NCBI RefSeq assembly: GCF_004795835.1
Contig: NZ_CP039249.1
Coordinates: forward strand, 1,794,501-1,858,500
Length of the DNA: 64,000 nucleotides
Reading direction: 5' to 3'
From: Sphingomonas sp. PAMC26645
GTDB taxonomy: Bacteria; Pseudomonadota; Alphaproteobacteria; Sphingomonadales; Sphingomonadaceae
Part shown: positions 3,121 through 62,362 of the stretch, piece by piece
How positions within the stretch are numbered: the stretch's first letter is position 1
Layout: each line of letters starts with the position of its first letter
Notes under the pieces: model-generated
Database searches by the model: none
Told to the model about the DNA's origin: nothing
What the model saw: the letters and a program-made list of their open reading frames with translations, nothing else
Program-made: the position numbers and the translations under genes

Positions 3121-4883
3121 TGGCGGAGGGCACGTCGCCGTCGCTGCTGCGCGACGGCGTCGTACTGCTCGGGTTCGGGCTGATGTTCGTGCTGCTGTTC
3201 CGCCGGCTCGGGCTCGGCGCGACGCTGGGGTATCTGGTCGCGGGCGCGGTCGTTGGGCCGCATGTGCTCGGCCTGGTCGGCGATGCTGAGTCGAAGCTCG
3301 GATTCGCCGAACTCGGCATCACGCTGCTGCTGTTCATCGTCGGGCTCGAACTGAACCCGTCACGCCTGTGGAAGATGAAGGAGGAGATCTTCGGATTGGG
3401 GCTCCTTCAGGTCGCGATCTGTGGCTTGGCGATCACCGCGATTGTCTGGGTCGGGGCGAAGTTCTCGCTCCCCGCCGCGCTCGCGCTCGGCCTGCCGCTC
3501 GCGCTGTCGTCGACCGCGCAGGTGCTGCCGATGCTGCGCTCGTCGGGGCGGATGAAGACCCCGTTCGGGGAGCGCGCGTTTTCGATCCTGCTGTTCCAGG
3601 ACCTCTCGATCGTCCCGCTCATCACGATCGTCGCGGCGATGAGCCGCAACCCGGCGGACGCCAACGCGCCTCCCGGGTGGCTGCTCGCGATCTATACCGT
3701 GCTCGCGGTCGTCGGACTTGTCGTCGCAGGGCGCTTCCTTCTACGCCCGTTCTTCCGGCTGATCGGCAATCTGGGCGAGCGCGAGATGTTCGTGTTCGCT
3801 GGCCTCTTCACCGTGATCGCCAGCGCCGCGATCATGGAATGGCTCGGGCTATCGACCGCGCTTGGGGCGTTCATCGCCGGCGTGATGCTCGCGGACAGCC
3901 CGTATCGCCACGAACTCGAAGCCGATGTCGAGCCGTTCCGCTCGATCCTGCTCGGCCTGTTCTTCCTCGCGGTCGGCATGGTGCTCGATTTGGGCGCGAT
4001 CGCCGAGCGCCCGTTCTTCGTGATGGCGATGGCGGCCGCGCTCATCGCGACGAAGACCGGCGTCATCATGCTCATCGGCATGGCGTTCAAGATGACGTGG
4101 CGGCAGGCGTTCGCGCTCGGCCTGTTGCTGAGCCAGGGCGGCGAATTCGGCTTCGTGCTGTTCGCGCAGGCGCAGGCCGGGCTGCTGATCGAACCGCAGG
4201 CGGCGAGCCTGTTCGGCGCGATCATCACGCTGTCGATGGCGACCACGCCGTTCCTCATGGGCATCACCCGCCGCTTCCGGACCGAACCGATCGCCGAGGG
4301 GCAGGAGCGCGACGGGCCCAAGGTCGACGGCGCGAATGCGATCATCGTCGGCTATGGGCGGTTCGGCCAGACGGTCGGCCAGATGCTGCTCGCGCAGGAT
4401 ATCCCGGTGACGCTGATCGACACCGATATCGAGATGATAGACATCGCGGGCGAGTTCGGCGCTAAGGTCTATTACGGCGACGGCACGCGGCTCGACCTGT
4501 TGCGGCAGGCAGGCGCGGCGGAGGCGGAGATCATCTGCTTCTGCATGGACGGCGATCAGCTCGATCCTGACACGATCGAGGGTGTGCACGAGGCTTTCCC
4601 CGACGCCGCGATCTACGTCCGAGCGTTCGATCGCCGCGCGCTGGTGAAGTTGAAGAACACGTCGGCGACGGCGGTGGTGCGCGAAGTGATGGAGTCCGCG
4701 GTGAAGATGGCGCGCCTGGCGTTGCGCGGGCTGGATGTGTCGCCGGCCGATATCGATCGCGCGGAGGAGCAATACCGGTCGCGCGACAAGGAGCGGTTGC
4801 AGTTGCAGATCGACTCCGGCGACATGCGCGCGGCACGTGCCGAGACCGCGAAACGCTTTCCCTGGGGGAATGATACGCAATGA
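3120..4883 (+). CDS. CPA2 monovalent cation:proton antiporter (KefB/KefC-like) with RCK domain
   Basis: 587 aa from the ATG at 3120, which shares its A with the preceding TGA. The N-terminal 390 residues hold about 12 hydrophobic helices of the Na+/H+ exchanger fold, including FGERAFSILLFQDLSIVPL and LSQGGEFGFVLF. A TrkA-N/RCK nucleotide-binding domain follows, beginning AIIVGYGRFGQTVGQ (GxGxxG) and continuing with the acidic LIDTD strand. Potassium or sodium export in exchange for protons, gated by a nucleotide or glutathione-type ligand, is the family role. The open frame runs further upstream, but that part overlaps the scaffold gene. The next gene overlaps by 4 bp. Confidence 0.9.
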   Translation: MAEGTSPSLLRDGVVLLGFGLMFVLLFRRLGLGATLGYLVAGAVVGPHVLGLVGDAESKLGFAELGITLLLFIVGLELNPSRLWKMKEEIFGLGLLQVAICGLAITAIVWVGAKFSLPAALALGLPLALSSTAQVLPMLRSSGRMKTPFGERAFSILLFQDLSIVPLITIVAAMSRNPADANAPPGWLLAIYTVLAVVGLVVAGRFLLRPFFRLIGNLGEREMFVFAGLFTVIASAAIMEWLGLSTALGAFIAGVMLADSPYRHELEADVEPFRSILLGLFFLAVGMVLDLGAIAERPFFVMAMAAALIATKTGVIMLIGMAFKMTWRQAFALGLLLSQGGEFGFVLFAQAQAGLLIEPQAASLFGAIITLSMATTPFLMGITRRFRTEPIAEGQERDGPKVDGANAIIVGYGRFGQTVGQMLLAQDIPVTLIDTDIEMIDIAGEFGAKVYYGDGTRLDLLRQAGAAEAEIICFCMDGDQLDPDTIEGVHEAFPDAAIYVRAFDRRALVKLKNTSATAVVREVMESAVKMARLALRGLDVSPADIDRAEEQYRSRDKERLQLQIDSGDMRAARAETAKRFPWGNDTQ

Positions 4884-15810: not shown

Positions 15811-15884
15811 TGGAGGCCCGACCGGGAATCGAACCCGGGTGCGAGGATTTGCAGTCCTCTACGTCACCACTCCGCCATCGGGCC
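15811..15884 (-). tRNA. tRNA-Cys (GCA)
   Basis: 74 nt with encoded CCA. The acceptor stem pairs GGCCCGA with TCGGGCC. The anticodon loop reads CTGCAAA with GCA at 15851-15853, and the T arm reads GGGTTCGATTCCC. The 5' 44 nt and 27 bp of upstream DNA form the 71-bp direct repeat that bounds the phage-like element, so the present upstream promoter region belongs partly to the element. Confidence 0.97.
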
Positions 15885-15911
15885 CCGATTGCGTGAAGGC
15901 GGCGCAAATGC
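15841..15911. repeat. Attachment site repeat, left (tRNA side)
   Basis: 71 bp identical to 25943-26013. It covers the tRNA-Cys 5' half (anticodon loop to base 1) and 27 bp upstream. Weaker similarity continues for about 25 bp past the identical block. Confidence 0.93.
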
Positions 15912-15978
15912 GTGGTTTCTGCATCCGCGTCAACGCCCGTGTGAAGATAGTTCGCACTTTTTTGGAGAGGGTTCGCAA

Positions 15979-16986
15979 TCACGCCCGCGCCTCCAGCTTT
16001 TCACCGGCTCGTTTCGAGGCCTTGCGTTGCTCGATATACTTCATCGCCATCTGGTAGGTCCGATGGCCCAGGACGGCCGCGATCTCCGCGATCGTGCATC
16101 CGGCCTCTTCCAGTTGCGCGGCCGCAGCATATCGGAGGCCGTGCATGGTTCGATGCGGCATTTCCTCGATCGCGAGGATCGATCGTGCGAGCGCTTGGGA
16201 CAGGCTCCCAGCAGTGTAGGACTTGCCGACGATGCTCAGAGCCATCACGACGGCCTTCTTCCCCCCAGAGGCCTTCAGGCGGTCTAGGTGGTCGCGTAAG
16301 CGCGGGTGACAGTAGATATCTAGAAACTCGTCTGTCTTATCCTGCCGGACGCGGATGGTGTTACCCTTGTAGTCGTTCCACGTCATGGAGACGACATCCG
16401 ACGCGCGTTGCCCGGTGTAGAGCGCCAGCAATACCGGCGTAGTGACATGCAAAGGCGCGCGAGCGAGGTACAGTTCGATTTCCTCGTCCGACCACGCCAC
16501 GTAAGGATTGACCTTGTGCTTGAGCTTCTTGAGCCCCTTCACCGGGTTGAAGCCCTCCGGAACTAGCTCTGCCTCGTCGGCCCAACTGTAGAGCCGGCTA
16601 GTCATCTGCCGGATCTTGTCGGCCTTGCGCGGCGTTGCCCGATACGAATCACGGACGGCCTTGATCATCTTCCTAGTCGTCAGCGCGAAGGGCTCTTCGC
16701 CAAGCTCTTCGATAATCAGCTCGCACGTTCCGGAATAGTCATCGCGGGTAGGTTCGGCGAGCGCGCCGTACTCGGCACTGGCGAGGTATTGCCGAACCAA
16801 CCACGTCCACGACGATCGCGAAGGCGCGGCCTTTGGGGTGCTTTGAGCCATCGCCAGCAGGACGGCGTACCGCGCATGAAACTCGGCATCACCGGGCGAA
16901 CCGGGCAAAGGCACGTCCAGTTCTGCGCGGCGGAAACGCCAATACCGGCCCTTTGCCAAATAAGTGTATTTTAGGTTCTTACCCAC
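15979..16986 (-). CDS. Phage-type tyrosine recombinase (integrase)
   Basis: 335 aa. The N-terminal DNA-binding region (about 1-150) includes a core-binding SAM-like segment (WTWLVRQYLAS onward). In the catalytic domain R is in LYTGQRASDVV, followed by HGLRYAAAAQLEEAG (H-xx-R), LGHRTYQMAMKY (H and the nucleophile Y). It would catalyse integration and excision at the tRNA-Cys site. It overlaps the HTH gene upstream by 8 bp. The start at 16986 gives MGKNLKYTYLAKGRYWRFRR, typical of phage integrases. Confidence 0.95.
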   Translation of the reverse strand: MGKNLKYTYLAKGRYWRFRRAELDVPLPGSPGDAEFHARYAVLLAMAQSTPKAAPSRSSWTWLVRQYLASAEYGALAEPTRDDYSGTCELIIEELGEEPFALTTRKMIKAVRDSYRATPRKADKIRQMTSRLYSWADEAELVPEGFNPVKGLKKLKHKVNPYVAWSDEEIELYLARAPLHVTTPVLLALYTGQRASDVVSMTWNDYKGNTIRVRQDKTDEFLDIYCHPRLRDHLDRLKASGGKKAVVMALSIVGKSYTAGSLSQALARSILAIEEMPHRTMHGLRYAAAAQLEEAGCTIAEIAAVLGHRTYQMAMKYIEQRKASKRAGEKLEARA

Positions 16987-17242
16987 GGTTTCGGCGGCGT
17001 TCCAAGAATGCGCTCTCTACGTCCTTCGCGGCGCGCCTGCCTTCGGCCGGCGTCATCGGCTGGCCTGCAACGCGATCGGCGTACAGATCGAGCGAGCGAC
17101 GATCGTAGCGAACGCAGCGGCCTTGTTCGATCGGCACGATGCCGAACGAACGAAACGTGTTCTCGCTGACGCTGAGATAGGCCGCTGCGAGTTTGATGGG
17201 CATCCAGCGAGGCCAGTCGGGAAGGTCTAGTCGATCAGTCAT
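16979..17242 (-). CDS. Small HTH protein, probable excisionase/AlpA type
   Basis: 87 aa from the ATG at 17242 (MTDRLDLPDWPRWMPIKLAA). A helix-turn-helix of MerR/AlpA type is visible at AAAYLSVSENTFRSFGIVPIE followed by a wing (RCVRYDRRSLDLYADR). The C-terminal part is charged and helical. Position immediately before int, with an 8-bp overlap, fits a recombination directionality factor. A transcription-regulator role is the alternative. Confidence 0.8.
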   Translation of the reverse strand: MTDRLDLPDWPRWMPIKLAAAYLSVSENTFRSFGIVPIEQGRCVRYDRRSLDLYADRVAGQPMTPAEGRRAAKDVESAFLERRRNRG

Positions 17243-17840
17243 GATTCTTCCCCCCGGACCCCGTCTCAGGGGCCAAGCTTGCCGGGGTTCCATTTGGAAG
17301 GACTTCCGCGCCGTCTTCTGCTACGTGTTCAAGAACAAAGTGTAGTTGAGACCTAATCGCGTCAGTAATCGAAACGTGCACTGCGGTTGCGGTAATTGCC
17401 AAATCGTAGAAGGGGGGAAGGTCGTTGGCATCCTTACTCGGATCAGGGGACCACATCTTACCATTCAACCGGTAGAAAAGTCCTGCGCCACCCTCCATTG
17501 GCGATATGATCAAGCGGAAGTCTAACGGATCGCCCAAATCATCAAGCGTTGGCGTCAAGCTACTACGAACGATATCTAGAAAATGCTCTAGATGCGGCTC
17601 GGCTTGCTTCGCGAATATCGCCGCAGTGCCTACAGGCATCCAAAGGCGGGTGAGGGTTTCGACAAGAGAGACGGTGAAGCGCTCTCGAAAGCTGAAGGTG
17701 AGGTGGCCTAGGCGATGCTTCTCACCAATTTTCAGGGTTCCGCGATCGATGGCATTCCGCAACTGGCGATCGTCTACGCCAGTACGGATCATGTCCCGCC
17801 AGCCCAGAACCCTCGTGTCAATCCATGCAAGTTCGCTCAT
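17235..17840 (-). CDS. Element protein of unknown function, possible MerR-like N terminus
   Basis: 201 aa from the ATG at 17840 with GGAG eight bases upstream (MSELAWIDTRVLGWRDMIRT). The first 70 residues look like a short DNA-binding helix pair followed by a wing. The rest includes FAKQAEPHLEHFLDIVRSSL and a strand-rich C terminus. Residues 1-60 could bind DNA as a repressor-like regulator (inference). It overlaps the HTH gene by 8 bp. No firm family. Confidence 0.6.
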   Translation of the reverse strand: MSELAWIDTRVLGWRDMIRTGVDDRQLRNAIDRGTLKIGEKHRLGHLTFSFRERFTVSLVETLTRLWMPVGTAAIFAKQAEPHLEHFLDIVRSSLTPTLDDLGDPLDFRLIISPMEGGAGLFYRLNGKMWSPDPSKDANDLPPFYDLAITATAVHVSITDAIRSQLHFVLEHVAEDGAEVLPNGTPASLAPETGSGGKNHD

Positions 17841-18013
17841 CGACCAATCTCCACTCGCAACCGCCTTACTCGCGTGAGTATGGATGTCAATCGCAAGGAT
17901 GGTGTCACAGAGGGGGAGGGGTGGCCCCCTTGTTACAAGGCTGCTCTCAAACTGCCGACAGTCGCGATGGCGCCGAGCGGGGAGAGAACCCCCCGGCATT
18001 GACGGAATAGGGC

Positions 18014-18298
18014 TCACGACGCGTTCACCGTGCGATATTCGCACGCGTTAAACGCATCGATTACAATCTCGATCGCAAAGGCCTGTTCGTTGGCAAGCCC
18101 GAGCAAATCATCGAACTCTTCCCAGTCGCCGTACTCAGCGACCGGGTTTCCGGAGCGTGTCAGGCTCTCGCGAAAGCGTTTGATGTTAGAAGCTGCGATG
18201 GAAAGTAATGTATCGACCCGCCGGCATCTTACCTTCAGCGCATCAATTTCATTTGCGACTTCGTCTGATACCAGACGGCAGAGGTTATCCTCGGACAT
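18014..18298 (-). CDS. Element protein of unknown function (94 aa)
   Basis: MSEDNLCRLVSDEVANEIDA from the ATG at 18298. It is mostly helical, possibly coiled coil over residues 10-45, with an acidic C-terminal half (YGDWEEFDDLLGLANEQ). A perfect hairpin (CGTCTG / CAGACG) at 18262-18277 lies inside its 5' coding end, next to the hairpin-rich segment. No family is recognised. Confidence 0.55.
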   Translation of the reverse strand: MSEDNLCRLVSDEVANEIDALKVRCRRVDTLLSIAASNIKRFRESLTRSGNPVAEYGDWEEFDDLLGLANEQAFAIEIVIDAFNACEYRTVNAS

Positions 18299-18299
18299 A

Positions 18300-18632
18300 G
18301 TGGCTCTCACTGGTTCCGGCCTTTCACAGCCATGCCCAAGTTGCGGACTTGGTGCCGGGATGGTGAAAGCCTGCCAGTGAGACAGGTGCAGCGTTTTCCC
18401 CCCGAAAGGGTCTTGTATATCCGCCGCCATCCCGACATAAGTCGGCAATGAGCGGTGGACGCCAATCCACGCTCTTCAGCAACCTGCCCGCCAAGGCGTG
18501 TTGCTAAGGCAAGCTCCCTCGCCAAAGGGATACATTGCCTCACTGGTCCGGACTTTCACATCCACGGACCGAGATGCACAAATTAACCGTGCAGCGCAAG
18601 CCATCCTCCGCCAAGGGGATGGATTTCGCGCG
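18300..18632 (-). ncRNA. Candidate structured RNA: array of at least eight hairpins
   Basis: This gene-free segment is almost filled by inverted repeats. They are a two-part stem at 18305-18382 enclosing CCAAGT/ACTTGG; CCGAC/GTCGG at 18432-18445; and further stems at 18451-18473, 18478-18505, 18515-18530, 18545-18570, 18575-18593 and 18601-18622. Four of them (18451, 18478, 18515, 18601) close a six-base loop that is CGCCAA on plus, TTGGCG on minus, while their stems differ in sequence. The left arm at 18305 recurs at 18538-18558. The minus strand is assumed because both flanking genes run that way. No known RNA family is assigned. Confidence 0.6.
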
Positions 18633-19103
18633 TCATGAGCTTCCAGCAGCTTCTGCCTTAGCTTTCCGCTTTGCAGCCCGAGCGGCCGTTTTCGCTATGT
18701 CCGCCGCCAGTTCGGTCTGAAACGTCACTAGCACTTGCTGGCGGGATATGACCCAAGCCGGTCGGGCATGGGGCTGCGCGACCTGAAAGCGCGTTCCATA
18801 CTCTTGCAGCTTACCGGCCGGGTTGGACGTGCCAGCGAACACTTCAACTTCGCTACTGCGCTCCCGGCGCGCTCTGCCCTTCTCGCGCGCGGTAAGCTTC
18901 GCAGCCGTCCCGATGACGTAGCTGTCACGCAGTGCGCCGCCCTCCGTATCGGATACCGGCGCAAGCCGCTTCACCTCGCTTAGGAACGGTCCCAGGGCTT
19001 TCACGGCAGCACGACGCATAACCGGCTTAGCCAACGATGCCTTTAGCTCCCCGAGGGCCTTGCCTAGCTCGTCCAGCCCCTCGACCTTCATCGTGAAATT
19101 CAT
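18633..19103 (-). CDS. HK97 gp10-like tail-completion protein
   Basis: 156 aa from the ATG at 19103 (MNFTMKVEGLDELGKALGEL), which overlaps the tape measure stop by 4 bp. It has the family layout: an N-terminal GLDEL helix, a VMRRAAVKALGPFLSEVKRLAPV segment, a YVIGT strand and EYGTRFQVAQPHARPAW near the C terminus. gp10-like proteins act in head-tail joining or tail completion. Normally this gene lies before the chaperone and tape measure; here it follows the tape measure, an unusual order. Confidence 0.85.
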   Translation of the reverse strand: MNFTMKVEGLDELGKALGELKASLAKPVMRRAAVKALGPFLSEVKRLAPVSDTEGGALRDSYVIGTAAKLTAREKGRARRERSSEVEVFAGTSNPAGKLQEYGTRFQVAQPHARPAWVISRQQVLVTFQTELAADIAKTAARAAKRKAKAEAAGSS

Positions 19104-21598
19104 TCGAGCGACTGCCGCGCGCGCCAAGCGTTCGCGCGCCCCGCCTCCGCCATGCCGGTTGCCATCGTAGCCTGCGCGATCGGCATGGCACCGTTCACGA
19201 CGCGGCCGTCGACGATAGCGTTAAAGTAGGGCGACGGCACGATCTGCACGCGTCCGCCGCCACCGCCGCCCCGATCGCCGCGCCCGCCGTTCGGAATCAC
19301 GGTTCCCGATACGCCAGGTGCGAATAGCTCCGGTCCTCGCTCGCCGACGACATACCAACTGGACGGGTCGATAGGTCCGCCCGTCGCCTTGCCACCGCCG
19401 AACGTCTGCGAGAGCAGCTTGCCGATACCGGCGAATGATCCGCCAGAACGGTTTCCAGCCGCGTCCGCAACGCCGAACAGGCTATTGGCAAGCGGCTTGA
19501 TGACCGCTTGTTGAATTGCGATATCGAGCAGCGCCGCACCGATTTGCCGCCCCATGTTGGTAAATGCGTCGGACAACGAGTTTGCGCCTAAGATCGCGTC
19601 GGATAGCTCCGAATTAAGATCCTTCATCGCAGAAACGCCAATGTCCTCTACTCGCTCCGACAACGCTGAGGCGGATTGGTTCAAAGAGGATAGGTAGTTT
19701 TCAGCCGGTGTTGCATGCTGGCGTCGGGCCATATCCTCTTTATGGTCATACGTTGCATCTAAGTTTGCAAGCTTGTCCCGCGCCTTCTGCCAATCCGGAT
19801 CAGTCGTTCGCGTGGTAGCGATCAAGCGTTCGAGTTCCGCTGCCTCTTGCTTCTTCTGTAGCGACAACAGTCGCAATTCACCATCCCGGCGAGACTGCGC
19901 GCTATCGGCCAAGTCTATTTGCGCACGCGTAATGTCTTGCTGAGCTTCATTTGCAGCGGAGAATAACTGATAAGTTTCGTCAGCCTTTGCGAACGAACGC
20001 GTTTGCTCGACGCTAGCGCGCCGGATTGCGAGTTCTTCATCCTTTGCAGCCATGAGGACAGCGCGTTTCGCGTCGGTCAACCGGGCATCGGTCGCAAGTT
20101 GCTTGGCGTAGGCGGCGCGATCGGCGTCGAGGCTGTCCATATCGGCGCGGTATTGAGCCTCGTAGCTGCCGGTTAGATCGGCCTGCGCCCGAAGGCCCGC
20201 CGCCCGGATCGCGGCCAGCTTCGCGGCGTAGCTTTCATCGTCTGCCGAGGTGTCGCGGCCCTTTGGCGTTTTCGCTTCCTTGGTTTTCTTCGCGACCGGC
20301 GTTGGCGATCGTACCAGCGCCGGGCGTGGCACTCGCTTGATTCCCGCCTCATTGATCGAGCCATCGGCATTCCGAGGAACGACGTAGCCCATGCCTTCCA
20401 GCCGTCGTGCCGACGCGTCGCGCCGCAGCTGCGCGGCCGATAGCTTCATGCCCGACTGGAAGCGGCCGGCGAGGTTCGATCCGTAAACCGTCGTCGTCGG
20501 CTTGCCCGCCAGCGATCGCGCCGCGTTCCCAGGTGCGTTGATGAAATTCGCGACCCCGGCCGCTGCCGCGCCAACCCGATCGAAGCTTTGCAGCATCGAG
20601 TGGATTTGGTCGGACACGCTGCGAATACGGATGCCGAGGGCGTCGAACACGGCAAAGCCACCCGTCTGTAGGGGATCAAAGACGTTGCCCAAACCGGCCA
20701 TAACGGACCGGGTATCCTGCCCGAACTGTTCAGCCGATGTTGATAGGCTGGCGAATCCATCGGCACCGCGACCGATGAAATCGGCAACCATAGTCGAGAA
20801 TTGCCCGCCTTGATCGAACGCGCCGAACGTCGTGACCGCCGCATTGTGAACGAGGGTCATGGCTTGGTCGAACGTCACGGGAAGCTTGCCGAACTCGGCA
20901 TCGATGCCAGCCGTGAATTTCTTGTCTGTGAGCGCCCTGAACAGGACATCGCTAGTAAGCTTGCCCTCAGCCGCCAGCGCGCGCACCGCGCCCTGCGTGA
21001 CGCCCATAGCGTCCGCAATGAGGCGCACGATTCGCGGCGATGCTTCGGCGATCGAATTGAACTCGTCCCCGCGAAGCGCGCCCGAGGCCAACGCCTGCCC
21101 GAACTGCAAGGTGGCGGACGCCGCAGCGTTGGCATCGGCGCCGCCAATCTTGAGAGCCTTGCCGAACGTCTCGGTAGCGCGAGCCGCGTCCGATTGCTTC
21201 GCACCAAGGGCCTCTGTAGCCCGCATGAAATTGCCGTAGAGGGCGGCTGTAGCGGTAAGACCCTCCCGAGTGACCCCGGCGATCCTTGCCACGTCCTCTT
21301 GCGCCTTGGCGAACGATCCACTGCGCGCCGTGGCTAGCTGAAGCTGCGCGTTGAGGTTCTTGGACTCATCCGCGAGGCTCAGGAACGATCGCGCGGCGAC
21401 GGTGACGGACGCGGCCCCAACAGCAGCAAAGGCGGCTTTGAGCGCGTTACCGCTCGCTGCCGCCTGCCGTTGCAGACCTGAAAACCCCTTGCTGGTGTCG
21501 GCAACGGTCCGCCGGCTTCGATCCATGGCACGATCGAACTCGGCGGTATTTGCGCCGAGCGTGACGCGTAGCGAGCCGATCAGGCCGTTGCCCGCCAC
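19100..21598 (-). CDS. Phage tail tape measure protein
   Basis: 832 aa from a GTG start (MAGNGLIGSLRVTLGANTAEFDRAMD). The tape-measure N-terminal domain covers about residues 60-250 (FNSIAEASPRIVRLIADAMGVTQGAVR). The centre (about 470-620) is long coiled coil, the Gly/Pro-rich stretch near 370-460 is a linker, and a hydrophobic helix lies at 690-740. The C-terminal GRVVNGAMPIAQATMATGMA segment is typical. The protein sets tail length, and 832 residues would suit a siphovirus-type tail. Confidence 0.93.
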   Translation of the reverse strand: MAGNGLIGSLRVTLGANTAEFDRAMDRSRRTVADTSKGFSGLQRQAAASGNALKAAFAAVGAASVTVAARSFLSLADESKNLNAQLQLATARSGSFAKAQEDVARIAGVTREGLTATAALYGNFMRATEALGAKQSDAARATETFGKALKIGGADANAAASATLQFGQALASGALRGDEFNSIAEASPRIVRLIADAMGVTQGAVRALAAEGKLTSDVLFRALTDKKFTAGIDAEFGKLPVTFDQAMTLVHNAAVTTFGAFDQGGQFSTMVADFIGRGADGFASLSTSAEQFGQDTRSVMAGLGNVFDPLQTGGFAVFDALGIRIRSVSDQIHSMLQSFDRVGAAAAGVANFINAPGNAARSLAGKPTTTVYGSNLAGRFQSGMKLSAAQLRRDASARRLEGMGYVVPRNADGSINEAGIKRVPRPALVRSPTPVAKKTKEAKTPKGRDTSADDESYAAKLAAIRAAGLRAQADLTGSYEAQYRADMDSLDADRAAYAKQLATDARLTDAKRAVLMAAKDEELAIRRASVEQTRSFAKADETYQLFSAANEAQQDITRAQIDLADSAQSRRDGELRLLSLQKKQEAAELERLIATTRTTDPDWQKARDKLANLDATYDHKEDMARRQHATPAENYLSSLNQSASALSERVEDIGVSAMKDLNSELSDAILGANSLSDAFTNMGRQIGAALLDIAIQQAVIKPLANSLFGVADAAGNRSGGSFAGIGKLLSQTFGGGKATGGPIDPSSWYVVGERGPELFAPGVSGTVIPNGGRGDRGGGGGGRVQIVPSPYFNAIVDGRVVNGAMPIAQATMATGMAEAGRANAWRARQSLE

Positions 21599-21601
21599 CG
21601 C

Positions 21602-21943
21602 TTAGGCCGCCTTCGCGCGAGCCGCGGCGCCGCCCATCGAGAAATTGAACTCCGCCACGATCGCCGCAGCGACGGCAGCAACCCCCACTTGATCGATGAT
21701 CGCGTCGACATGCTCGGTCGTCGCCTCGTCGGCGTGATGCTTGCGGAGACCGTGCGCGAGACACGTGCGAATTGTCCGCACGTCGACGTTGTTGGCGACC
21801 TGTTCGAGGACGTGGCGGAACGGCAAATCGAATTCCGTTTCGAGATCGCAAATCCGAGCGTTACCGAGGAAGATCGTCTTGCCGGTGCCACGGATCGCGG
21901 TCCCGATCAGCTTTTCGATCTTAGTTGCAGTTGGCTTTTTCAT
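21602..21943 (-). CDS. Probable tail assembly chaperone (GTA gp10-like)
   Basis: 113 aa from the ATG at 21943 with AGAGG upstream (MKKPTATKIEKLIGTAIRG). The body, GNARICDLETEFDLPFRHVL then a run of helices ending IVAEFNFSMGGAAAR, matches the size and layout of tail-tube chaperones that precede tape measure genes. Its position immediately before the tape measure (3-bp gap) is the main support. No frameshift site was looked for beyond the gene end. Confidence 0.65.
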   Translation of the reverse strand: MKKPTATKIEKLIGTAIRGTGKTIFLGNARICDLETEFDLPFRHVLEQVANNVDVRTIRTCLAHGLRKHHADEATTEHVDAIIDQVGVAAVAAAIVAEFNFSMGGAAARAKAA

Positions 21944-22105
21944 GTCATGCCTCTCAGTGAATTGGGGAGGCTGCTGGCGGCAACGCACGGAAGTAGCGTG
22001 CCGCCAGCTTATGGCCTGCCGGAGGCCACCGCGCCGGGATGATGCCGCCTCTGGCCTAGGCGAGCGCGGTCCCGGTTGTTCGCGGATATCCGCGCTTCGC
22101 TTTCG

Positions 22106-24337
22106 TTATTCGATGGCCTCGCCGGGGTTCTTGTAAGCCCCACGATGGTCGACGGCGCCGGCCCCGAAATCCATGTAAACTCGAAATTTGGTTCCCAGCA
22201 CGTCCCAGCCGTCCTGCATCTCGACCTTCGGGCCGGTCTGCTCGTTCAGATAGGCGTATTCGAGCGTCGGCGCCGTAAGGGGATCGCCGAACAGGAACCA
22301 CGCGCGCGGATCGAGGCGCGGATCGACTGCGGGCGTGAGCTTACCAGCGAACGGATTGGCATCAGCGGAGGTGCCGGTCTGAAGTGCCGTCATCATCTGC
22401 TCAATGGTCGTCTCGTTATCGATCCCCGAAACGATGTATTTTGGAGCGGGTGCGATCGGCGTCCGCCCGTCGAGATCCTTTTGGCTCCGCATCGCCATGC
22501 GACCGGCATCGAGCGTTGCTACCGTTGGCTTACCGCCTACCGCCGCCAAATTACCGTGTGCCGCGCTGAACAACGGCAAGTTGTCGCTCAGCCTCGGATT
22601 GCTGTTGATAAGATCGGCAAGAAGGGTCGCTTCGGTTTCAGCGGCCGCGCGAGCCATGATGATCATGGGATCGCTAAAAACGCCCAAGTCGTCATTGATG
22701 ATCGCCTGACGCGAGAGGGCAAAGCCCTTCGTAAACGTCTTGAGGCGGTAAGTTTCTTTACGTTCCTTGAAAGTGCCGTACTTAATCTCGCCGTCTTCGA
22801 GCGTTTCGTCCAGAGTCCCGTACCCGGAAAGCTGAATTCCGGTAAGCGCGCGGAAGTCACGTGCCGTCCGCTGACGGCTGATCTGCTTAAGTGGCGATGC
22901 CGCAGCCTGAAAGACCGTCAGTAGGAAGCGTTCGCCCGCGCCCAACAACAATTCGGGGAAATCCGACGTGGTATGCATGCCAGCCATGTCGCGCCCGAAG
23001 CTGCTGTCATGCATAAAGCTACGCTTACCACCGCCACTATTCCACGCGGCTGCATTGAGAACATCAGTGGGGTTCATGCGATGGACATCGCGAAGGCCGC
23101 GCCGCTGCGCCAGGTCGCCCGCGATCTGCACCATGCTCATATTCATGAACTCGCGAGCCGCTTCGGTCGGCGCCGTGCCACTCATCCGGGCAAACAGCGC
23201 TTCCTCGATCGCGCGTGCATGAAAGTGCGGGTTGTCGAAATTGCGTAGACCGTCGGATGCGAGCGCACGCGCCGCCTCCCCAGCGAAGCCTGAGACCCCA
23301 GTATTACCCACGCCACCGGGGATGTGGCGAACGTTGCTCGTTGCCTGTCGCTGCCGTTCGGCAACGATCGCCATCACGGCATCACGCGCTTGCCCCTCCG
23401 TCAGCGACCGCTCAGCGATCTCGAGCGCCAGATCTGCGCAAAGCTCCGATGGCAAATCCATCAGCTCACTCGCCGTCTGGGTGTACTCGCGGAGCCACGG
23501 AATCGTTGCTTGCCGGGAATAGGAGATTTCCGTCGCCGCGCCGCCCGCAGGATCGACCGACAGGGCAGGTGGTACGGGCGGCGCGGCCCGCGTGCCAGTG
23601 AAACGCGAAATCCAGTTGGTCATGGACATGAGCTTGGTTTCCTTTGTGGAAGTGGTGCGAATGAGACAGGTGTGGGAGCCGTGCGGCAGGTCGCGGACCT
23701 GAGCGCCGGCATCGAACGGGACCGGGACGAAGCTGATTTCGGTCGGCTCCCAGTCCACGGCCCGGTAAAGCGGACGTGGTTGGGCTTTCGGATCAACCTC
23801 GAATACGTGGACGGCATAGCCAACGGACAGATTGCGAATGATACCGGCCGCAATATCGGCGACGATCGGGGCGAGGTCGTCGCGGGCCGATAGCTGGATT
23901 GTGGCGATGCCTTCGCCGTTCGTCATTCTTGCCGTGCCGGGAACGACGATCCCAATCTGACCGCCTAAATCGCCCGATTGATGAGTGTTCAGGACCGGCG
24001 CACCCCGGTTGAGGCGGTCGAGGCGGACGTTGCCAGGGGCGGTCGCCAGTTCCTCGTCAACCACATCGAAGGTGTCGAAACTGAACCGCGCCCCTCGTGC
24101 ACCGGTAGTCCAGACCACATCGAGCGTCCGCGCCTCGGCGTTCCAGCTTTTGGGTTGAAGCGACAGTTGCCGCGTCCCCTGCGGGGCGGTCACAAGCCGC
24201 TCAAGTTTAATAGGTGCGGGGCTTCCGGTGACCGGGAAAAGTCGCTCGACGACAGCAGCGACGGTTGCGCGGCCGGGGTTGGCGACGGTGGCATGCCCTG
24301 AAAAGGTGCGTACTCGATTGCGGGGAGCGTCTGTCAT
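22106..24337 (-). CDS. Fused prohead protease / major capsid protein
   Basis: 743 aa from the ATG at 24337 (MTDAPRNRVRTFSGHATVAN). The first 210 residues have the HK97-type prohead protease His (H119 in LNTHQSGDLGGQIG) and Ser (S171 in IRNLSVGYAVHVFEV). After a Pro/Ala linker the remaining roughly 450 residues look like a phage capsid protein, with DFRALTGIQLSGYGTLDETL, KTFTKGFALSRQAIINDDLG and a C-terminal GAVDHRGAYKNPGEAIE. The fusion lets maturation cleave the capsid precursor in one chain. It overlaps neither neighbour. Confidence 0.85.
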   Translation of the reverse strand: MTDAPRNRVRTFSGHATVANPGRATVAAVVERLFPVTGSPAPIKLERLVTAPQGTRQLSLQPKSWNAEARTLDVVWTTGARGARFSFDTFDVVDEELATAPGNVRLDRLNRGAPVLNTHQSGDLGGQIGIVVPGTARMTNGEGIATIQLSARDDLAPIVADIAAGIIRNLSVGYAVHVFEVDPKAQPRPLYRAVDWEPTEISFVPVPFDAGAQVRDLPHGSHTCLIRTTSTKETKLMSMTNWISRFTGTRAAPPVPPALSVDPAGGAATEISYSRQATIPWLREYTQTASELMDLPSELCADLALEIAERSLTEGQARDAVMAIVAERQRQATSNVRHIPGGVGNTGVSGFAGEAARALASDGLRNFDNPHFHARAIEEALFARMSGTAPTEAAREFMNMSMVQIAGDLAQRRGLRDVHRMNPTDVLNAAAWNSGGGKRSFMHDSSFGRDMAGMHTTSDFPELLLGAGERFLLTVFQAAASPLKQISRQRTARDFRALTGIQLSGYGTLDETLEDGEIKYGTFKERKETYRLKTFTKGFALSRQAIINDDLGVFSDPMIIMARAAAETEATLLADLINSNPRLSDNLPLFSAAHGNLAAVGGKPTVATLDAGRMAMRSQKDLDGRTPIAPAPKYIVSGIDNETTIEQMMTALQTGTSADANPFAGKLTPAVDPRLDPRAWFLFGDPLTAPTLEYAYLNEQTGPKVEMQDGWDVLGTKFRVYMDFGAGAVDHRGAYKNPGEAIE

Positions 24338-24426
24338 GCCGACCAATCGCCCGCGATCGGTCGAGCGTCGATTACCGTTGTGCGGCAGAATGCGGCAACA
24401 AGCGGCTGAATGTGTCATCGCGCCGA

Positions 24427-24651
24427 TTAAGCGGCGCGCCCCGAACCCTCCATGCCTAGCTTGGCAGCCACCCTCCCGGACCGTTCCACTGCGAGGAGTT
24501 GATCCGTGCTGTAGCGGACGCGTCCGGTAGGCGTCCGAGTGTGGCCGATCCTGCCGGCGACCCGCCAAGCTCGAAGAGTGCGCGGAGCGATCCCAAGTAT
24601 TCGCGCCGCTTGCTTTTCGTCAAAGTCAAAGACTCTTTCTATGATTGTCAT
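24427..24651 (-). CDS. Small HTH DNA-binding protein (MerR/excisionase type)
   Basis: 74 aa (MTIIERVFDFDEKQAARILG). A winged HTH is clear: [42 protein letters not shown]. It is a second MerR-like protein besides the one beside int, and it lies 89 bp upstream of the protease/capsid gene. It may regulate the structural operon (inference). A short basic tail follows the HTH. Confidence 0.7.
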   Translation of the reverse strand: MTIIERVFDFDEKQAARILGIAPRTLRAWRVAGRIGHTRTPTGRVRYSTDQLLAVERSGRVAAKLGMEGSGRAA

Positions 24652-24793
24652 GAGTTCACCAGTTTGCAGAGTTCAAGTTCATGAAGTTCATAATTCGGAA
24701 CAGGGGTTGAACAGCGTTTACACGCGCTCAATCCACCCGCGACTGCCGTACGCCCCCGGAAGGGACCCGTTGGGGGTGGGGTCGGCTGGCCAA

Positions 24794-25003
24794 TCAATGG
24801 CGAACCACGTCGGAGCCCGTTCGCAACTTAGTCCAGTCGCGTTCAACCTCGGCCATGATCCGCACCGCCTCGTCAGCCCCGAAGGTGCGCTGGAGGATGA
24901 TGCCGCCCGCCTTCATGAGCGCTGTTACTGCGTCGGCTGGATGGTCGGTCGCGTCGACTGCGACCCGCGCAAGTTGCTCTGCCAAGGTAGCTGGCGCGGT
25001 CAT
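24794..25003 (-). CDS. Small element protein of unknown function
   Basis: 69 aa (MTAPATLAEQLARVAVDATD). It is helical, with a hydrophobic face; the end is RDWTKLRTGSDVVRH. It overlaps the stop of the upstream primase-tail-like gene by 4 bp (ATGA), which supports it as real. No family. Confidence 0.55.
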   Translation of the reverse strand: MTAPATLAEQLARVAVDATDHPADAVTALMKAGGIILQRTFGADEAVRIMAEVERDWTKLRTGSDVVRH

Positions 25004-25470
25004 CGCTCGAACAATCCCAGGACACGCTGCGCCGCCTCCGCAGGGTTCGCCCGGTCGCCATTGGCAATGATCGCGTGGCGAAGGTCGAGCAACGCCGCGA
25101 GTGCTGCGTCAAGCTTGCTCAACAGCGGGCTCGCATCCGTCGTCGTCGTTGACTGTGGTGATCCGCGAAACGGGTTCGGCAGATTATCAGCAATGTCCGG
25201 GTAAGATGCGGCGAACCCGGCATCGACATAACGAACGCCGTTGCTCTGGATACGCCGATGGCCCGCCAATTCCATCTGCTGACGAAGAGCGCTGAAGGTC
25301 ATCGTCGGTTCGTCGTTCAACCTTGCCCACGCATGGTAGCTGTCCCAGAGTTCACGAGCGCGGATACGCGAGCCGCCCACGTGGCGGACAGATGACCGGT
25401 AGAAACGCTCAAACGGTGACGCGAGCGTGATCGGAAGGGGGCGTCCTTCCATGCGGAGGTCGTAAGACAT
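25000..25470 (-). CDS. Protein resembling the C-terminal wHTH of phage/plasmid primases
   Basis: 156 aa from the ATG at 25470 with GGAAGG upstream (MSYDLRMEGRPLPITLASPF). The segment FERFYRSSVRHVGGSRIRARELWDSYHAWARLNDEPTMTF resembles the helical tail found after D5/VirE-type helicase-primase domains, which binds DNA. Helicase Walker motifs are absent, so this is either a stand-alone DNA-binding protein or the remnant of a replication gene. It heads the minus-strand gene set, 470 bp from the right attachment repeat. Confidence 0.5.
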   Translation of the reverse strand: MSYDLRMEGRPLPITLASPFERFYRSSVRHVGGSRIRARELWDSYHAWARLNDEPTMTFSALRQQMELAGHRRIQSNGVRYVDAGFAASYPDIADNLPNPFRGSPQSTTTTDASPLLSKLDAALAALLDLRHAIIANGDRANPAEAAQRVLGLFER

Positions 25471-25942
25471 GTGTGCACCTTCCATTTTAGCAAGCCAAAG
25501 CATGGCAAATAACGGCGGAATTCAGCCGTTTTTTTGATTGAGTAGTTATGAAGAAGTAGAGTTTTGGAAGTAGTGGAAAGACAAATAGGGGTAGTCTCGT
25601 GCGCACATGCGCAGGCGCGCATGCGTACGAGGGCACCCCGCAAACCTATTCCACCCATTCCAAAGCCCCGGAAATCAGCCGTTTTCGTGGTTCCAAACGT
25701 GCTTCCAACCGGAAGCCGATGTACTTCCATTCTATCGCCGGGTCCGGGTCCGAACTCAGCCTTGAGTCCGGAAGTAAACTGCGAGCCGCTCGCCAACCGG
25801 GGTGCGGGGCGGGCGGTCCCAACGGCTCGCTCGCAAGCAAACCGACGGCGAAATAGTTCGCAGTCGGTCCGTAAGTCATTGAATTTCGGTGAGCCGTAAA
25901 TAGGCTGAAAAGTGCGAACTACCGCAGTTCTGTGGGACTTTG
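25471..25942. other. Right end of element without a supported gene
   Basis: 472 bp with lower GC than the flanks, including TTTTTTGATTGAG near 25530 and an alternating purine-pyrimidine patch of GCACATGCGCAGGCGCGCAT type near 25600. Short ORFs on both strands lack ribosome-binding sites. It probably holds the promoter of the minus-strand genes and perhaps a replication or repressor-binding region (inference). Confidence 0.5.
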
Positions 25943-26013
25943 GCGAGGATTTGCAGTCCTCTACGTCACCACTCCGCCATCGGGCCCCGATTGCGTGAAG
26001 GCGGCGCAAATGC
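25943..26013. repeat. Attachment site repeat, right (tRNA fragment)
   Basis: 71 bp identical to 15841-15911. It carries the first 44 nt of tRNA-Cys only, so it is a non-functional tRNA fragment, plus the original upstream flank. Beyond 26013 the sequence departs from the left copy. Confidence 0.93.
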
Positions 26014-26197
26014 TTCGTTTTTCCGCCGCGGTCAACCGGCAGTTGCGGTCCGCAGCGGAATAATCTGGTTATCCTCGACTCGCACGTCGCCGCAGGCGGT
26101 AAGCGTCGCGCGCTACCGCCCCCCGCCTCGTCCCTGGCCTCGTATCGTGACTCGCACACGTCAGCGTCTTTGCTTAGGGTTAAGTGCAACGACGCTA

Positions 26198-41762: not shown

Positions 41763-43829
41763 ATGCGTAAGTCGATTGTTACCGTGATCCTGCTCGCGTC
41801 CGCCGCATCGGCCTTCGCCCAAACGAACACCCCGTCGCCGACCCTCGCCAAGGCTGCCAAAGGCCCTATCGCCGCCAAGGACGCCAACAAGCCGCAGATC
41901 GGCGATTTCGGCTTCGACATGGCCGGCCGCGATACCAGCGTGACGCCGGGTACTGACTTCTTCGATTACGCGAACGGCGGCTGGGTGAAGACGACGCCGA
42001 TCCCCGCAGATCGCTCGTCCTACGGCATGTTCCACGTCCTTCAGGACCTGTCGCTCGAACGCACTCGCACGATCCTCGACGTCTCCGCGAAGACGCCCGG
42101 CGACAAGGTCGGCGATTTCTATTCCAGCTTCATGGACGAGGCCGCGGTCAACGCCAAGGGCGCAACGCCGGTCAACCCGATGCTCGCCGCGCTGAAGGCG
42201 ACCAAGGACAAGACCGCGCTCGTCACCGAGATCGCCAAGCTCCAGCGCCAGGGCGTCGGCGGTCTCGTCGGCGTCGGCGTGCAGCAGGACGACAAGGATC
42301 CGACCACCTATGTCGTCAGCCTCGGCCAGAGCGGCATCGGCCTCCCCGACCGCGATTACTACCTCAAGGACGACGCCAAGCTCGCCACCATCCGCACCGC
42401 GTACCAGGCGTATCTGACGCGGATGCTCACGCTCGCCGGCGAGCCCAACGCCGCCACCCGCGCCGCCGCCGTCTTCAACATGGAGAAGGGCCTCGCGACC
42501 GCGCATTGGACGCGGATCGAGAGCCGCGACGCCGACAAGACCTACAACAAGTGGACCGCCGCCGACTTCGCCGCGAAAGCGCCGGGCTTCCCCTGGGCGC
42601 AGTACATGACCGCGATGGGCGTCACCGGTCGTCCGTTCTACCTCGTCGCGCAGCCGAGCGCGGTGACCGGCGAGGCGAAGGTCTTCGCTGACACGCCCAT
42701 CAACGTCCTGCAGGACTATGCGATGCTCAAGGTGCTGCGCTCGTACGCGCCGTATCTGTCGAGCGATTTCGACAAGACCAACTTCGCGTTCTATGGCACC
42801 ACCCTGTCGGGCACGCCCGAGCAGCAGGTCCGCTGGAAGCGCGGCGTCTCGACCGTGTCGGGCGCGATGGGCGAGGCGATCGGCCAGCAGTACGTCGCCA
42901 AGTATTTCCCGCCCGCGTCGAAGGCGGCGGCGGACGATCTCGTCAAGAACGTCATCGCCGCGATGGGCGAGCGCCTCCGGAACCTCGAATGGATGGCGCC
43001 CGAGACCAAGACCAAGGCGCTCGCCAAGCTCGCTGCCTTCACGCCCAAGATTGGCTATCCCGACAAGTGGCGCGATTATTCCGCACTCCAGATCCAGCGC
43101 GGCGATCTCGTCGGTAACGTCGCGCGCGCCAACGCGTTCGAATATGATCGCGACCTGAAGAAGCTCGGCCAGCCGATCGATCGGGCTGAGTGGTTCATGA
43201 CGCCGATGACGATCAACGCCTATGCCAACCCGACGATGAACGAGGTCGTCTTCCCGGCCGCGATCCTCCAGCCGCCGTTCTTCGATCCGAAGGCGGACCC
43301 GGCGGTCAATTACGGCGGCATCGGCGCGGTGATCGGTCACGAGATCAGCCATCACTTCGACGACCAGGGCCGCAAATACGACCTCAACGGCAAGCTCACC
43401 GACTGGTGGACGCCACAGGACGTGGCGCGCTTCAAGGTGTTCACCGACGCGCTCGTAAAGCAGTACGACGCGTACGAACCGCTCCCCGGCCAGCACATCC
43501 AGGGCGGCCTGACACTCGGCGAGAACATCGCCGACTTGGCGGGCCTGACGGTCGCCTACGACGCGTATCACAAGTCGCTCGGCGGCAAGCCCGCGCCTAT
43601 CATCGACGGCACCACCGGCGACCAGCGCTTCTATTATGGCTGGGCGGGGGTCTGGCGCACCAAGTTCCGCGACGCCGCGCTCCAGCAGACGCTGCTGTCC
43701 GACCCACACTCGCCGGGCCACCAGCGCGTCCTGACAGTCCGCAACCTCGACCCCTGGTATGCCGCATTCGGCGCCAAGCCGGGCGAGAAGAGCTACCTCG
43801 CCCCCGCCAACCGCGTCCGCATCTGGTAA
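41763..43829 (+). CDS. M13 (neprilysin-like) metallopeptidase, copy 1
   Basis: 688 aa from the ATG at 41763 (a TTG one codon earlier is also possible). A signal peptide (to about residue 20, ASAFAQ) leads into the M13 N-terminal domain. The zinc site is HEISHHFDDQG (H526), then ENIADLAGLTVAYDAYH supplies the Glu ligand. The C terminus is the typical RVRIW. It is a periplasmic zinc endopeptidase for oligopeptides. It lies 120 bp upstream of a paralogue in the same direction, with a family C palindrome between them. Confidence 0.95.
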   Translation: MRKSIVTVILLASAASAFAQTNTPSPTLAKAAKGPIAAKDANKPQIGDFGFDMAGRDTSVTPGTDFFDYANGGWVKTTPIPADRSSYGMFHVLQDLSLERTRTILDVSAKTPGDKVGDFYSSFMDEAAVNAKGATPVNPMLAALKATKDKTALVTEIAKLQRQGVGGLVGVGVQQDDKDPTTYVVSLGQSGIGLPDRDYYLKDDAKLATIRTAYQAYLTRMLTLAGEPNAATRAAAVFNMEKGLATAHWTRIESRDADKTYNKWTAADFAAKAPGFPWAQYMTAMGVTGRPFYLVAQPSAVTGEAKVFADTPINVLQDYAMLKVLRSYAPYLSSDFDKTNFAFYGTTLSGTPEQQVRWKRGVSTVSGAMGEAIGQQYVAKYFPPASKAAADDLVKNVIAAMGERLRNLEWMAPETKTKALAKLAAFTPKIGYPDKWRDYSALQIQRGDLVGNVARANAFEYDRDLKKLGQPIDRAEWFMTPMTINAYANPTMNEVVFPAAILQPPFFDPKADPAVNYGGIGAVIGHEISHHFDDQGRKYDLNGKLTDWWTPQDVARFKVFTDALVKQYDAYEPLPGQHIQGGLTLGENIADLAGLTVAYDAYHKSLGGKPAPIIDGTTGDQRFYYGWAGVWRTKFRDAALQQTLLSDPHSPGHQRVLTVRNLDPWYAAFGAKPGEKSYLAPANRVRIW

Positions 43830-61402: not shown

Positions 61403-62362
61403 ATGCGCGCGTTCATCTTCCCCGGCCAGGGGAGCCAGTCTGTCGGCATGGGCAAGGGGCTCGCCGACGCCAGTGCCACCGCCCGCGAGGTCTTCGCCGA
61501 AGTCGACGAGGCGCTCGGCCAGCACCTGTTCCGGCTGATGAGCGAAGGTCCAGCGGACGACCTGCTCCTCACCGAGAACGCGCAGCCGGCGATCATGGCG
61601 AACGCGATCGCTACCCTGCGCGTCGCCGAGAAGGAAGGCGGTATCCGCCTCGCCGACAAGGCGGACTATGTCGCCGGCCACAGCCTCGGCGAATACACTG
61701 CCTTGTGCGCCGCTGGTGCGCTCGACCTGTCGACCACCGCGCGCCTCCTGAAACTCCGCGGTCGCGCGATGCAGGCGGCGGTACCGGTAGGCGAGGGCGC
61801 AATGGCAGCCCTCCTCGGCACCGACCTCGAAAAGGCGCAACTGATCGCCGGCGCTGCGGTCGACGCGATTCTGGCGGAAGGCGGCCCCGAACTGATCTGC
61901 ACCGTCGCCAACGACAATGATCCGTCGCAAGTCGTCATCTCCGGCCACCGCCTCGCCATCGAAAAGGCGATCGCGCTGGCCAAAGACCTCGGCGCCAAGC
62001 GCGCGGTATTGTTGCCCGTCTCCGCGCCTTTCCACTGCCCGTTGATGCAACCCGCCGCCGAAGCGATGGAAGCTGCCCTGCTGGACGCCGACCTCCGCGC
62101 GCCGCTCGTTCCCGTCTTCGCCAATGTCGATGCGGTCGCCGTCGCCGACCCCGGCGCGATCCGTCACCTACTCGTGCAACAGGTCACCGGGATGGTCCGC
62201 TGGCGCGAATCGGTGTTGGCGATGCATGCGGCGGGGGTCGGCCACTTCGTCGAGTTCGGCGGCAAGGTTCTTAGCCCGATGGTCAAACGCATTACCCCCG
62301 ACGTCGAGACGACGAGCGTCATCACGATGGACGACATCGAGGAACTCGTGAAGAAGATGTGA
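61403..62362 (+). CDS. fabD: Malonyl-CoA:ACP transacylase
   Basis: 319 aa from the ATG at 61403 with a GAGGAGAGG ribosome-binding site (MRAFIFPGQGSQSVGMGKGL). GHSLGE carries the nucleophile S94; SAPFHC has the catalytic His. The enzyme loads malonyl groups on ACP. The stop is followed at once by an inverted repeat and the GxxExxY gene, which separates fabD from fabG-acpP. Confidence 0.97.
   Translation: MRAFIFPGQGSQSVGMGKGLADASATAREVFAEVDEALGQHLFRLMSEGPADDLLLTENAQPAIMANAIATLRVAEKEGGIRLADKADYVAGHSLGEYTALCAAGALDLSTTARLLKLRGRAMQAAVPVGEGAMAALLGTDLEKAQLIAGAAVDAILAEGGPELICTVANDNDPSQVVISGHRLAIEKAIALAKDLGAKRAVLLPVSAPFHCPLMQPAAEAMEAALLDADLRAPLVPVFANVDAVAVADPGAIRHLLVQQVTGMVRWRESVLAMHAAGVGHFVEFGGKVLSPMVKRITPDVETTSVITMDDIEELVKKM

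Follow-up and report, generated by a model that had tools for sequence, protein, structure and literature searches.

A probable C4-type antisense-RNA control module with a UUGGCG hairpin array, on the minus strand ahead of an integrase operon in a phage-derived Sphingomonas element

Minus-strand positions 18296-18634 of the window, by which we mean the whole 64,000-nt stretch of Sphingomonas sp. PAMC26645 DNA that was analyzed, lie between two minus-strand frames (18633-19127 and 18014-18298) and raise the question of what a run of stem-loops does ahead of a gene in a mobile element. A preliminary description had counted eight hairpins in this interval, which is fair as a by-eye count of stem-loops, except that some of them are mutually alternative, as is a hairpin at 18428-18447 that competes with the P1 stem of the core described below. 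From comparison with homologous sequences, we conclude that the locus is very probably a C4-type antisense-RNA control module, encoded on the minus strand and set on an operon that ends in an integrase, with a new array of UUGGCG hairpins. The frame at 18014-18298 was listed by the ORF tool from an upstream TTG, and its start at the ATG at 18298, which gives 94 aa, is our choice.

The element that hosts the locus is phage-derived. Family searches with ten of its proteins found integrase, tape measure, capsid-protease, and HK97-gp10-like proteins and a weak, HTH-type match to the terminase small subunit family phrog_57 (E 0.002), and no portal or large terminase was found among these ten. The element adjoins a tRNA-Cys and spans about 10.1 kb (15841-26036), with a 93% direct repeat of 94 bp at 15841-15934 and 25943-26036; it looks like a capsid-bearing phage satellite. 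At the cut-offs of Rfam itself, tRNA was the single match in the whole window. ARAGORN called an odd tRNA with a four-base anticodon at 61901-61998, which is absent from the Rfam matches and probably spurious. A known Rfam riboswitch was ruled out by the Rfam searches, and an integron attC site or DNA signal was rejected as a class.

The minus-strand leader is 339 nt long, core included, and runs in the order 5' UUGGCG hairpin, a1, b1, three UUGGCG hairpins, 91-nt core, short hairpin, a2, b2, and start codon. Its predicted parts are as follows.

18594-18634, minus strand: 5' hairpin P0, arms GCGCGAAA...CUUGCGC, with a UUGGCG loop at 18609-18614
18553-18559, minus strand: a1 (GUGAAAG), upstream target copy, from complementarity and covariation in homologues
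18538-18546, minus strand: b1 (CCAGUGAGG), upstream target copy, from complementarity to the core loop
18515-18531, minus strand: hairpin 2, UUGGCG loop at 18520-18525, from hairpin analysis
18478-18505, minus strand: hairpin 3, UUGGCG loop at 18489-18494, from hairpin analysis
18450-18474, minus strand: hairpin 4, UUGGCG loop at 18460-18465, from hairpin analysis
18346-18436, minus strand: putative antisense core, RF02221-like, with a P1 stem around P2 and P3 (52.3 bits; covariation in 46 cores)
18370-18386, minus strand: P3 hairpin CCUG..CAGG, with b' as its loop (UCUCACUGG, 18374-18382), from the core alignment
18363-18369, minus strand: a' (CUUUCAC), single strand between P3 and P1, from complementarity and covariation
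18350-18362, minus strand: 3' strand of P1, then ACCA (an RCCA-like, RNase P-type signal; processing presumed), from tail inspection
18321-18327, minus strand: a2 (GUGAAAG), downstream target copy, from complementarity and covariation
18305-18313, minus strand: b2 (CCAGUGAGA), downstream target copy just 5' of the start codon at 18298-18296, from complementarity

The upstream a1-b1, the b' (P3 loop) and a' (single strand) of the core, and the a2-b2 before the next gene form a three-way complementarity. The preliminary description had reported that a left arm at 18305 recurs at 18538 and that one right arm could pair with either copy. We found the same relations: 18305-18313 is complementary to 18374-18382, and 18536-18546 to 18374-18384. 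The repeat is longer than had been claimed, because direct repeat D2 (18315-18332 and 18547-18564, 89% identical) adds to it.

No known RNA class had been recognized at this locus, and that statement is not supported, since the core is of the RF02221 (sRNA-Xcc1) type and the arrangement is that of phage C4 antisense RNA. The core aligns over its full length (1-87) to RF02221 with E 1.4e-8, at a score 0.7 bits below the curated cut-off of 53 bits and hence seen at a looser threshold, and the full-length alignment includes the P1/P2/P3 fold of the model. Cores of relatives scored 47.6 bits (L022) and 36.8 bits (L002), and L003 gave no RF02221 match at E up to 5; L028 (64.3 bits) and L341 (72.6 bits) are above the cut-off and have the same arrangement by eye. 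With an E limit of 0.01, RF02221 matches were found in 43 of 299 relatives (two genomes over the cut-off), and with a limit of 1e-4 in 37 of 385 genomes of the window's class (seven over the cut-off). Genomes G356 and G553 (1.4 and 1.6 Mb) have ten matches each at E up to 1e-4. The genome of the window also contains a second RF02221-type RNA of another subtype (L177, 34.9 bits), about 14 kb before the window start, and no UUGGCG loop was seen in the stretch of L177 inspected.

The 46 cores comprise 43 distinct sequences, one of which recurs in two loci of the genus and in two viral contigs. From these cores, RNAalifold predicted P1, the tip of P2, and P3, and 9 of the 13 pairs show double changes. 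For the core structure, which we named after prediction from the same alignment, 90 cells showed double changes compared to 23.5 in shuffled alignments (0 of 500), and the covariation score was lower at every slide of the partner strand. The inner four pairs of P3 are unbroken throughout the alignment, and one named P1 pair is broken in 33 of 43 rows, probably by misalignment. Covariation in homologues, which the preliminary description had proposed as a check, is thus present in the core stems and also in the triple arms treated below.

The available sections of earlier papers report sRNA-Xcc1 in Xanthomonas as an 88-nt RNA seen by Northern blot, with ends mapped by RACE (PMC2996969), and upstream of symE in integron cassettes (PMC12444791). 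Likewise, seven sRNA-Xcc1 homologues, five of them clustered in a genomic island, are reported as transcripts in the accessible part of a Xylella paper (PMC12189769), where sRNA-Xcc1 and C4 antisense stand as separate table rows and a title in the reference list describes sRNA-Xcc1 as an integron-, transposon-, and plasmid-borne trans-acting sRNA. The accessible part of the Rfam 15 paper includes RF02221 and c4-2 among the models improved by R-scape.

The arrangement around the core is the one known from C4 of phages P1 and P7 (RF01695; c4-a1b1, RF03163). The phage P1 record has a1, b1, c4, a2, b2, and icd in that order, and in the window module a1 b1, the RNA, a2 b2, and the start codon follow one another in the same way. 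In both, the P1 stem encloses P2 and P3, the P3 loop contains b', and the single strand behind it is a'; both also have UUAU before the P1 stem, a CC-rich end, and a position in the leader of a phage control operon. As in C4, a'b' of the window module is complementary to a2b2 at the start of the next gene, and a second copy, a1b1, lies upstream. In contrast to C4, the window module has a longer P2 and UUGGCG hairpins around a1b1, and its operon ends in an integrase, whereas the C4 operon of phage P1 is icd/ant. The RF01695 model fails on the window core (no match at E up to 10) and passes phage P1 as control (68.8 bits), and the RF02221 cut-off is narrowly missed. For these reasons, the module is, as judged from alignment and order, C4-like in its predicted working, with an RF02221-like core, and not a member of the C4 family. 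Compared to sRNA-Xcc1, with which it aligns end to end, the window core differs in lying within a long leader, and no a1b1/a2b2 target copies are mentioned for sRNA-Xcc1 in the accessible parts of the papers on it. The family c4-2 (RF02944), which from its name we take to be a second C4-like Rfam family and which a 2017 paper reportedly described, matched 0 of the 12 module genomes at E up to 1; 14 control genomes were silent too, so this result is weak.

Homologous modules were collected by several searches. The close set comprises 15 modules including the window, to which 31 viral modules were added from the one-arm selection test described below. A DNA search of 199 relatives yielded two real relatives besides the window; L004 from this search was a chance match, inside a coding frame by eye. 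The first pattern scan of viral contigs gave one real locus (L022) among 23, the other 22 being chance by eye. A scan of genome contigs (at least 119 loci) passed four through its filter. Three of these were real, namely L108, which was new, and L059 (Sphingomonas sp. Leaf10) and L176, which are named contigs of loci that the set contained before. L141 from the same scan was a chance match. When 295 genomes of the genus were searched with a covariance model of the 5' domain (R1), built from six sequences, 12 of them gave clear hits at E up to 1.3e-6, with 14 loci in all. Five of these loci are in the model and match by construction, and nine are new; all 14 were read, and L022 makes 15. Another 13 weaker R1 hits were left out of the counts, and L237 and L238 from these were read and are not real modules. 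Among 36 loci of the second viral scan, 18 were read by eye as having the core and hexaloop hairpins, and L280 was chance. The third viral scan, made with the left arm alone, gave 46 loci. L294 and L295 have the triple together with UUGGCG. An extractor based on regular expressions overlooked many true modules and was abandoned, and a free 7-mer triple search (295 hits, many of them spurious) was not used as a count. By blastn, no match was found for the window RNA in phage and plasmid records, for L198 and L281 in phages, or for L331 in plasmids; L198 matched four plasmid records.

Whether both target copies change together with the antisense strand was examined in these sets. The 15 loci carry 11 different a' words. 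If G-U pairs are counted, 104 of the 105 a' positions can pair with a1, and the figure for a2 is also 104 of 105, where the a2 half of the count is circular because a' was selected as the best match to a2. A symmetric run test, with equal freedom for right and wrong partners, gave longest cognate runs of 7.2 for a1 and 7.1 for a2 compared to 4.8 and 4.7 for wrong-locus words, and runs of b' were 6.9 and 8.1 cognate compared to 4.9 and 5.1 non-cognate (0 of 20,000 permutations in each case). The cleanest test, which is not circular, used viral contigs for which the left arm was the sole selection criterion (46 loci with 47 sites), counting the 42 sites with at least 330 nt after the arm, which carry 17 different a1 words. 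An exact a1 complement lies 120-250 nt downstream in 37 of these 42 left arms and for 1 of 543 wrong-locus words. The full triple (a1, its complement, a1 recurring, and an ATG behind) is present in 31 of 42 and for 0 of 543 wrong-locus words. Thus, 5 of 42 sites have no exact core complement and 11 of 42 have no full triple, and the modules counted are not all independent of each other. The end of a2 is 21-25 nt from the ATG in all 15 loci, and the ATG after a2 opens a frame of at least 60 aa in 39 of 42 loci, a count from which three of 45 sites were left out as their frame ran off the stored DNA.

A family-wide test covered 69 of 79 loci, themselves a subset of all RF02221 hits, with four truncated hits and six loci of the UUGGCG group set aside. 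Upstream a1b1 pairing scored 16.3 compared to 13.9 (0 of 10,000), with 19 of 69 loci singly above their own 95th percentile. Downstream a2b2 pairing was weaker, at 13.1 compared to 12.2 (3 of 10,000), with 6 of 69 loci singly above theirs. A crude test of duplex energy, covering 52 loci, was replaced by later tests. Taken as predicted pairings, the three target and antisense copies change together across homologues.

The identity of order and topology with phage P1 C4 implies that the C4 mechanism is likely here as well. The accessible text of an Acinetobacter paper summarizes this mechanism, including processing by RNase P (PMC5320573), and partly available sources state that full repression of ant in phage P1 needs C4 (PMC8198154) and that RCCA is important for cleavage by RNase P RNA (PMC12710915). 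By analogy with phage P1 C4, the core would be cut from the leader transcript, probably by RNase P, as its UUAU|G flank and RCCA tail also suggest. UUAU|G precedes P1 in 8 of 15 loci. Of 69 RF02221 hits, 36 have RCCA among the six bases that open the tail, but a plain ACCA tail occurs in only 2 of 15 close homologues. The a'b' of the freed core would then pair with a2b2 at the start of the next gene, which would block ribosome access to the first gene and lower the whole operon through the integrase. As long as a1b1 holds a'b' in the precursor, the start would remain accessible. This choice might be steered by the UUGGCG hairpins, a conserved additional domain placed around a1b1 and ahead of the core, through binding of a protein or RNA, a step in which we have low confidence. 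The likely purpose would be to keep an integration/excision or antirepressor operon quiet in the integrated state.

The same arms could toggle within one molecule. The preliminary description had suggested a switch, and this idea gains from the finding that the third arm covaries with both partners and from the predicted fold: in the minimum-energy fold of the window leader, b' is paired to b1 at 9 of 9 bases and a' to a1 at 6 of 7, and when the 3' part of the leader is folded alone, the core strand pairs with a2b2 in 4 of 4 loci (by eye). A leader switch acting solely in cis, like a riboswitch or attenuator, in which a ligand, a loop-bound protein, or upstream translation would decide whether a'b' is paired with a1b1 or with a2b2 and no free antisense RNA is made, fits these two well-folding alternatives. 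It also fits, as the C4-type reading does, the finding that no terminator-like site was detected within 17900-19200 and hence none between core and gene. Even so, we consider this reading doubtful, because RNA of the RF02221 type accumulates free in Xanthomonas and is transcribed from seven homologues in Xylella, according to the partial accounts cited above, and because the C4 arrangement is matched point by point. A C4-type antisense module is therefore the reading that we prefer for the arms, and it leaves the hairpin array to be considered.

All four hexaloops that the preliminary description had mentioned (TTGGCG on the minus strand) were located as hairpin loops. From the first to the last in the order of the leader, their perfect stem runs are 1, 5, 3, and 5 pairs, the first having a C/A mismatch after its closing pair. 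Three of the four have a perfect stem of at least three pairs, which was reached in 0 of 2,000 dinucleotide shuffles. Across the 15 loci, there are 49 UUGGCG loops on 28 distinct five-base stem arms, and 34 of the loops have perfect stems of at least four pairs, compared to a shuffle mean of 0.055 and a maximum of 1 in 200. All four Watson-Crick kinds occur as closing pairs (CG 23, GC 12, TA 7, AT 6), with CA once. Each of the 15 loci has two or three UUGGCG hairpins between b1 and the core, and 13 of 15 have one more before a1, at P0; the flanks of P0 are alike in 6 of 6 aligned loci. When the 31 viral regions were searched for hairpins without naming the loop, UGGC was found in 57 of 88 hairpins; a UGGC tetraloop is UUGGCG with a U-G closing pair. 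These results bear out the claim that one loop sits on unrelated stems. Within the window, UUGGCG occurs in 2 of 689 minus-strand hexaloop hairpins with stems of at least five pairs, both in the module, and CGCCAA in 4 of 619 such plus-strand hairpins, three in the module and one at 43127. These counts rule out UUGGCG as a general habit of hairpins in the window DNA. Outside the modules, hairpins of the form CCCCCTGGCGGGGG, whose loop is UGGC, lie between genes at L237 and L238 in the genus, possibly a hint that this loop is favored in these genomes.

Thus, to the extent that aligned hairpins can tell, the loop is conserved while the stems drift, and from a loop kept on drifting stems we infer, as is natural, that the UUGGCG loops have a putative binding partner. 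Hairpins of CsrB and RsmZ titrate CsrA. RNAs of this type likewise repeat one loop sequence along a series of hairpins whose stems differ; in contrast to them, the loop here is UUGGCG rather than a GGA motif, and the array is tied to an antisense core. A literature search found no paper with both 'UUGGCG' and 'hexaloop'. We offer, tentatively and with little confidence, the proposal that the array constitutes a novel domain of regulatory RNA. Its loops would be docking sites for a dedicated factor from phage or host, and this factor would decide whether the core is held by a1b1 or released to a2b2. In sphingomonads and related hosts, prophages and satellites could thereby use RNA to sense a signal before the integrase operon is expressed. 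The array could also be a platform for protein titration or packaging to which the antisense core is merely adjacent, as the constancy of the loop over varying closing pairs and 28 stem arms would allow. We regard this as unlikely, since the regular placement of hairpins between b1 and the core and before a1 makes array and core look like one module.

The strand on which the module acts was judged from several kinds of evidence. Folding energy exceeds chance on the minus strand as RNA (z -4.66), on the plus strand as RNA (z -5.45), and on the minus strand as DNA (z -3.29), with 0 of 100 dinucleotide shuffles reaching the native value in each case. The comparison with shuffled sequence that had been suggested as a control thus favors real structure, and because both RNA strands fold beyond shuffles, fold energy does not decide the strand. 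Within the core, there are 71 G-U pairs compared to 15 A/C mismatches on the minus strand, as expected for a minus-strand RNA. P0 differs: beside its loop, there are 11 A/C mismatches compared to 1 G-U pair on the minus strand (13 loci), and in the window it has a plus-strand stem of 8. The later UUGGCG hairpins are neutral on strand (6 A/C mismatches and 4 G-U pairs). P0 thus pairs better on the plus strand as far as base pairing can be predicted, and P0 alone possibly has a plus-strand or DNA role. The minus strand is favored by the match to an RNA family, by the position ahead of a start codon in all 15 loci, and by the G-U excess of the core, and the leader RNA is best read there. A single-stranded DNA or recombination signal, or a plus-strand RNA, would suit the mobile-element setting, the folding of DNA and plus-strand RNA beyond shuffles, and the better plus-strand pairing of P0. 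We judge it very improbable in view of the G-U excess in the core, the one fixed strand before the start codon, and the match to an expressed RNA family on the minus strand. Finally, chance or compositional hairpin density, for which the many hexaloop hairpins on both strands of this GC-rich window might speak, has next to no probability, being already refuted by the counts of homologues in many loci with compensatory triple changes.

The minus-strand C4-type module would act on a run of four genes whose frames overlap.

18014-18298, minus strand: first gene of the putative operon, 94 aa when read from the ATG, without a family match at E up to 0.01
17235-18044, minus strand: second gene, overlapping the first, frame as listed by the ORF tool, start uncertain, without assigned function
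16979-17293, minus strand: third gene, small phage-type transcription regulator (phrog_25900, E 9e-6)
15979-16986, minus strand: integrase, last gene of the run (PF00589, E 3e-12)

Across the loci, 42 first genes were scanned at E up to 0.01, a set to which the window was added and from which the 28-aa frame of L314 was left out. Individual genes had hits to HTH_3, HTH_31, two DUFs, and two PHROGs, one PHROG being a transcriptional regulator, and the remaining first genes gave no family at this threshold. An alignment of the first genes (A4) is loose, with 10% mean column identity and an acidic consensus LDAxxxDxDLE; small acidic proteins recur among the apparent targets. Further downstream, the phage integrase family was matched by 20 of 101 frames, a set in which one frame was exchanged by hand for the integrase-like frame of L022. 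Seven integrases checked singly lie 0.8-1.9 kb after the RNA start. An ANT domain was found in 1 of the 101 downstream proteins scanned (L022), where the gene after the RNA encodes the antirepressor Ant, which has Bro-N and KilAC domains; no ant gene was found among ten window proteins scanned.

If the module works as proposed, the orphan sRNA family RF02221 would gain a concrete mechanism and a predicted target, namely the gene just downstream via a2b2, where that copy exists. C4-type control would no longer be confined to P1-like phages but would include prophages and a small satellite-like element that have integrase operons, and the chromosomal target predictions for relatives of sRNA-Xcc1 would need to be reconsidered. 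Moreover, naming the conserved UUGGCG loop would allow its putative binding partner to be fished for directly. The extension to RF02221 at large is supported by plasmid NZ_CP093017.1 (L341), where the RF02221 RNA over cut-off is directly followed by a gene for a BRO family protein, with a b2-like site just before the BRO start and an imperfect a2 match (by eye); this arrangement resembles c4-ant of phage P1. Another plasmid, from Azospirillum thermophilum (L339), has an RF02221-type RNA at 4111-4189 that scores 36.9 bits, under the cut-off. This RNA precedes a gene run that includes a Gam family gene, and HTH regulators lie on the other strand about 2 kb upstream.
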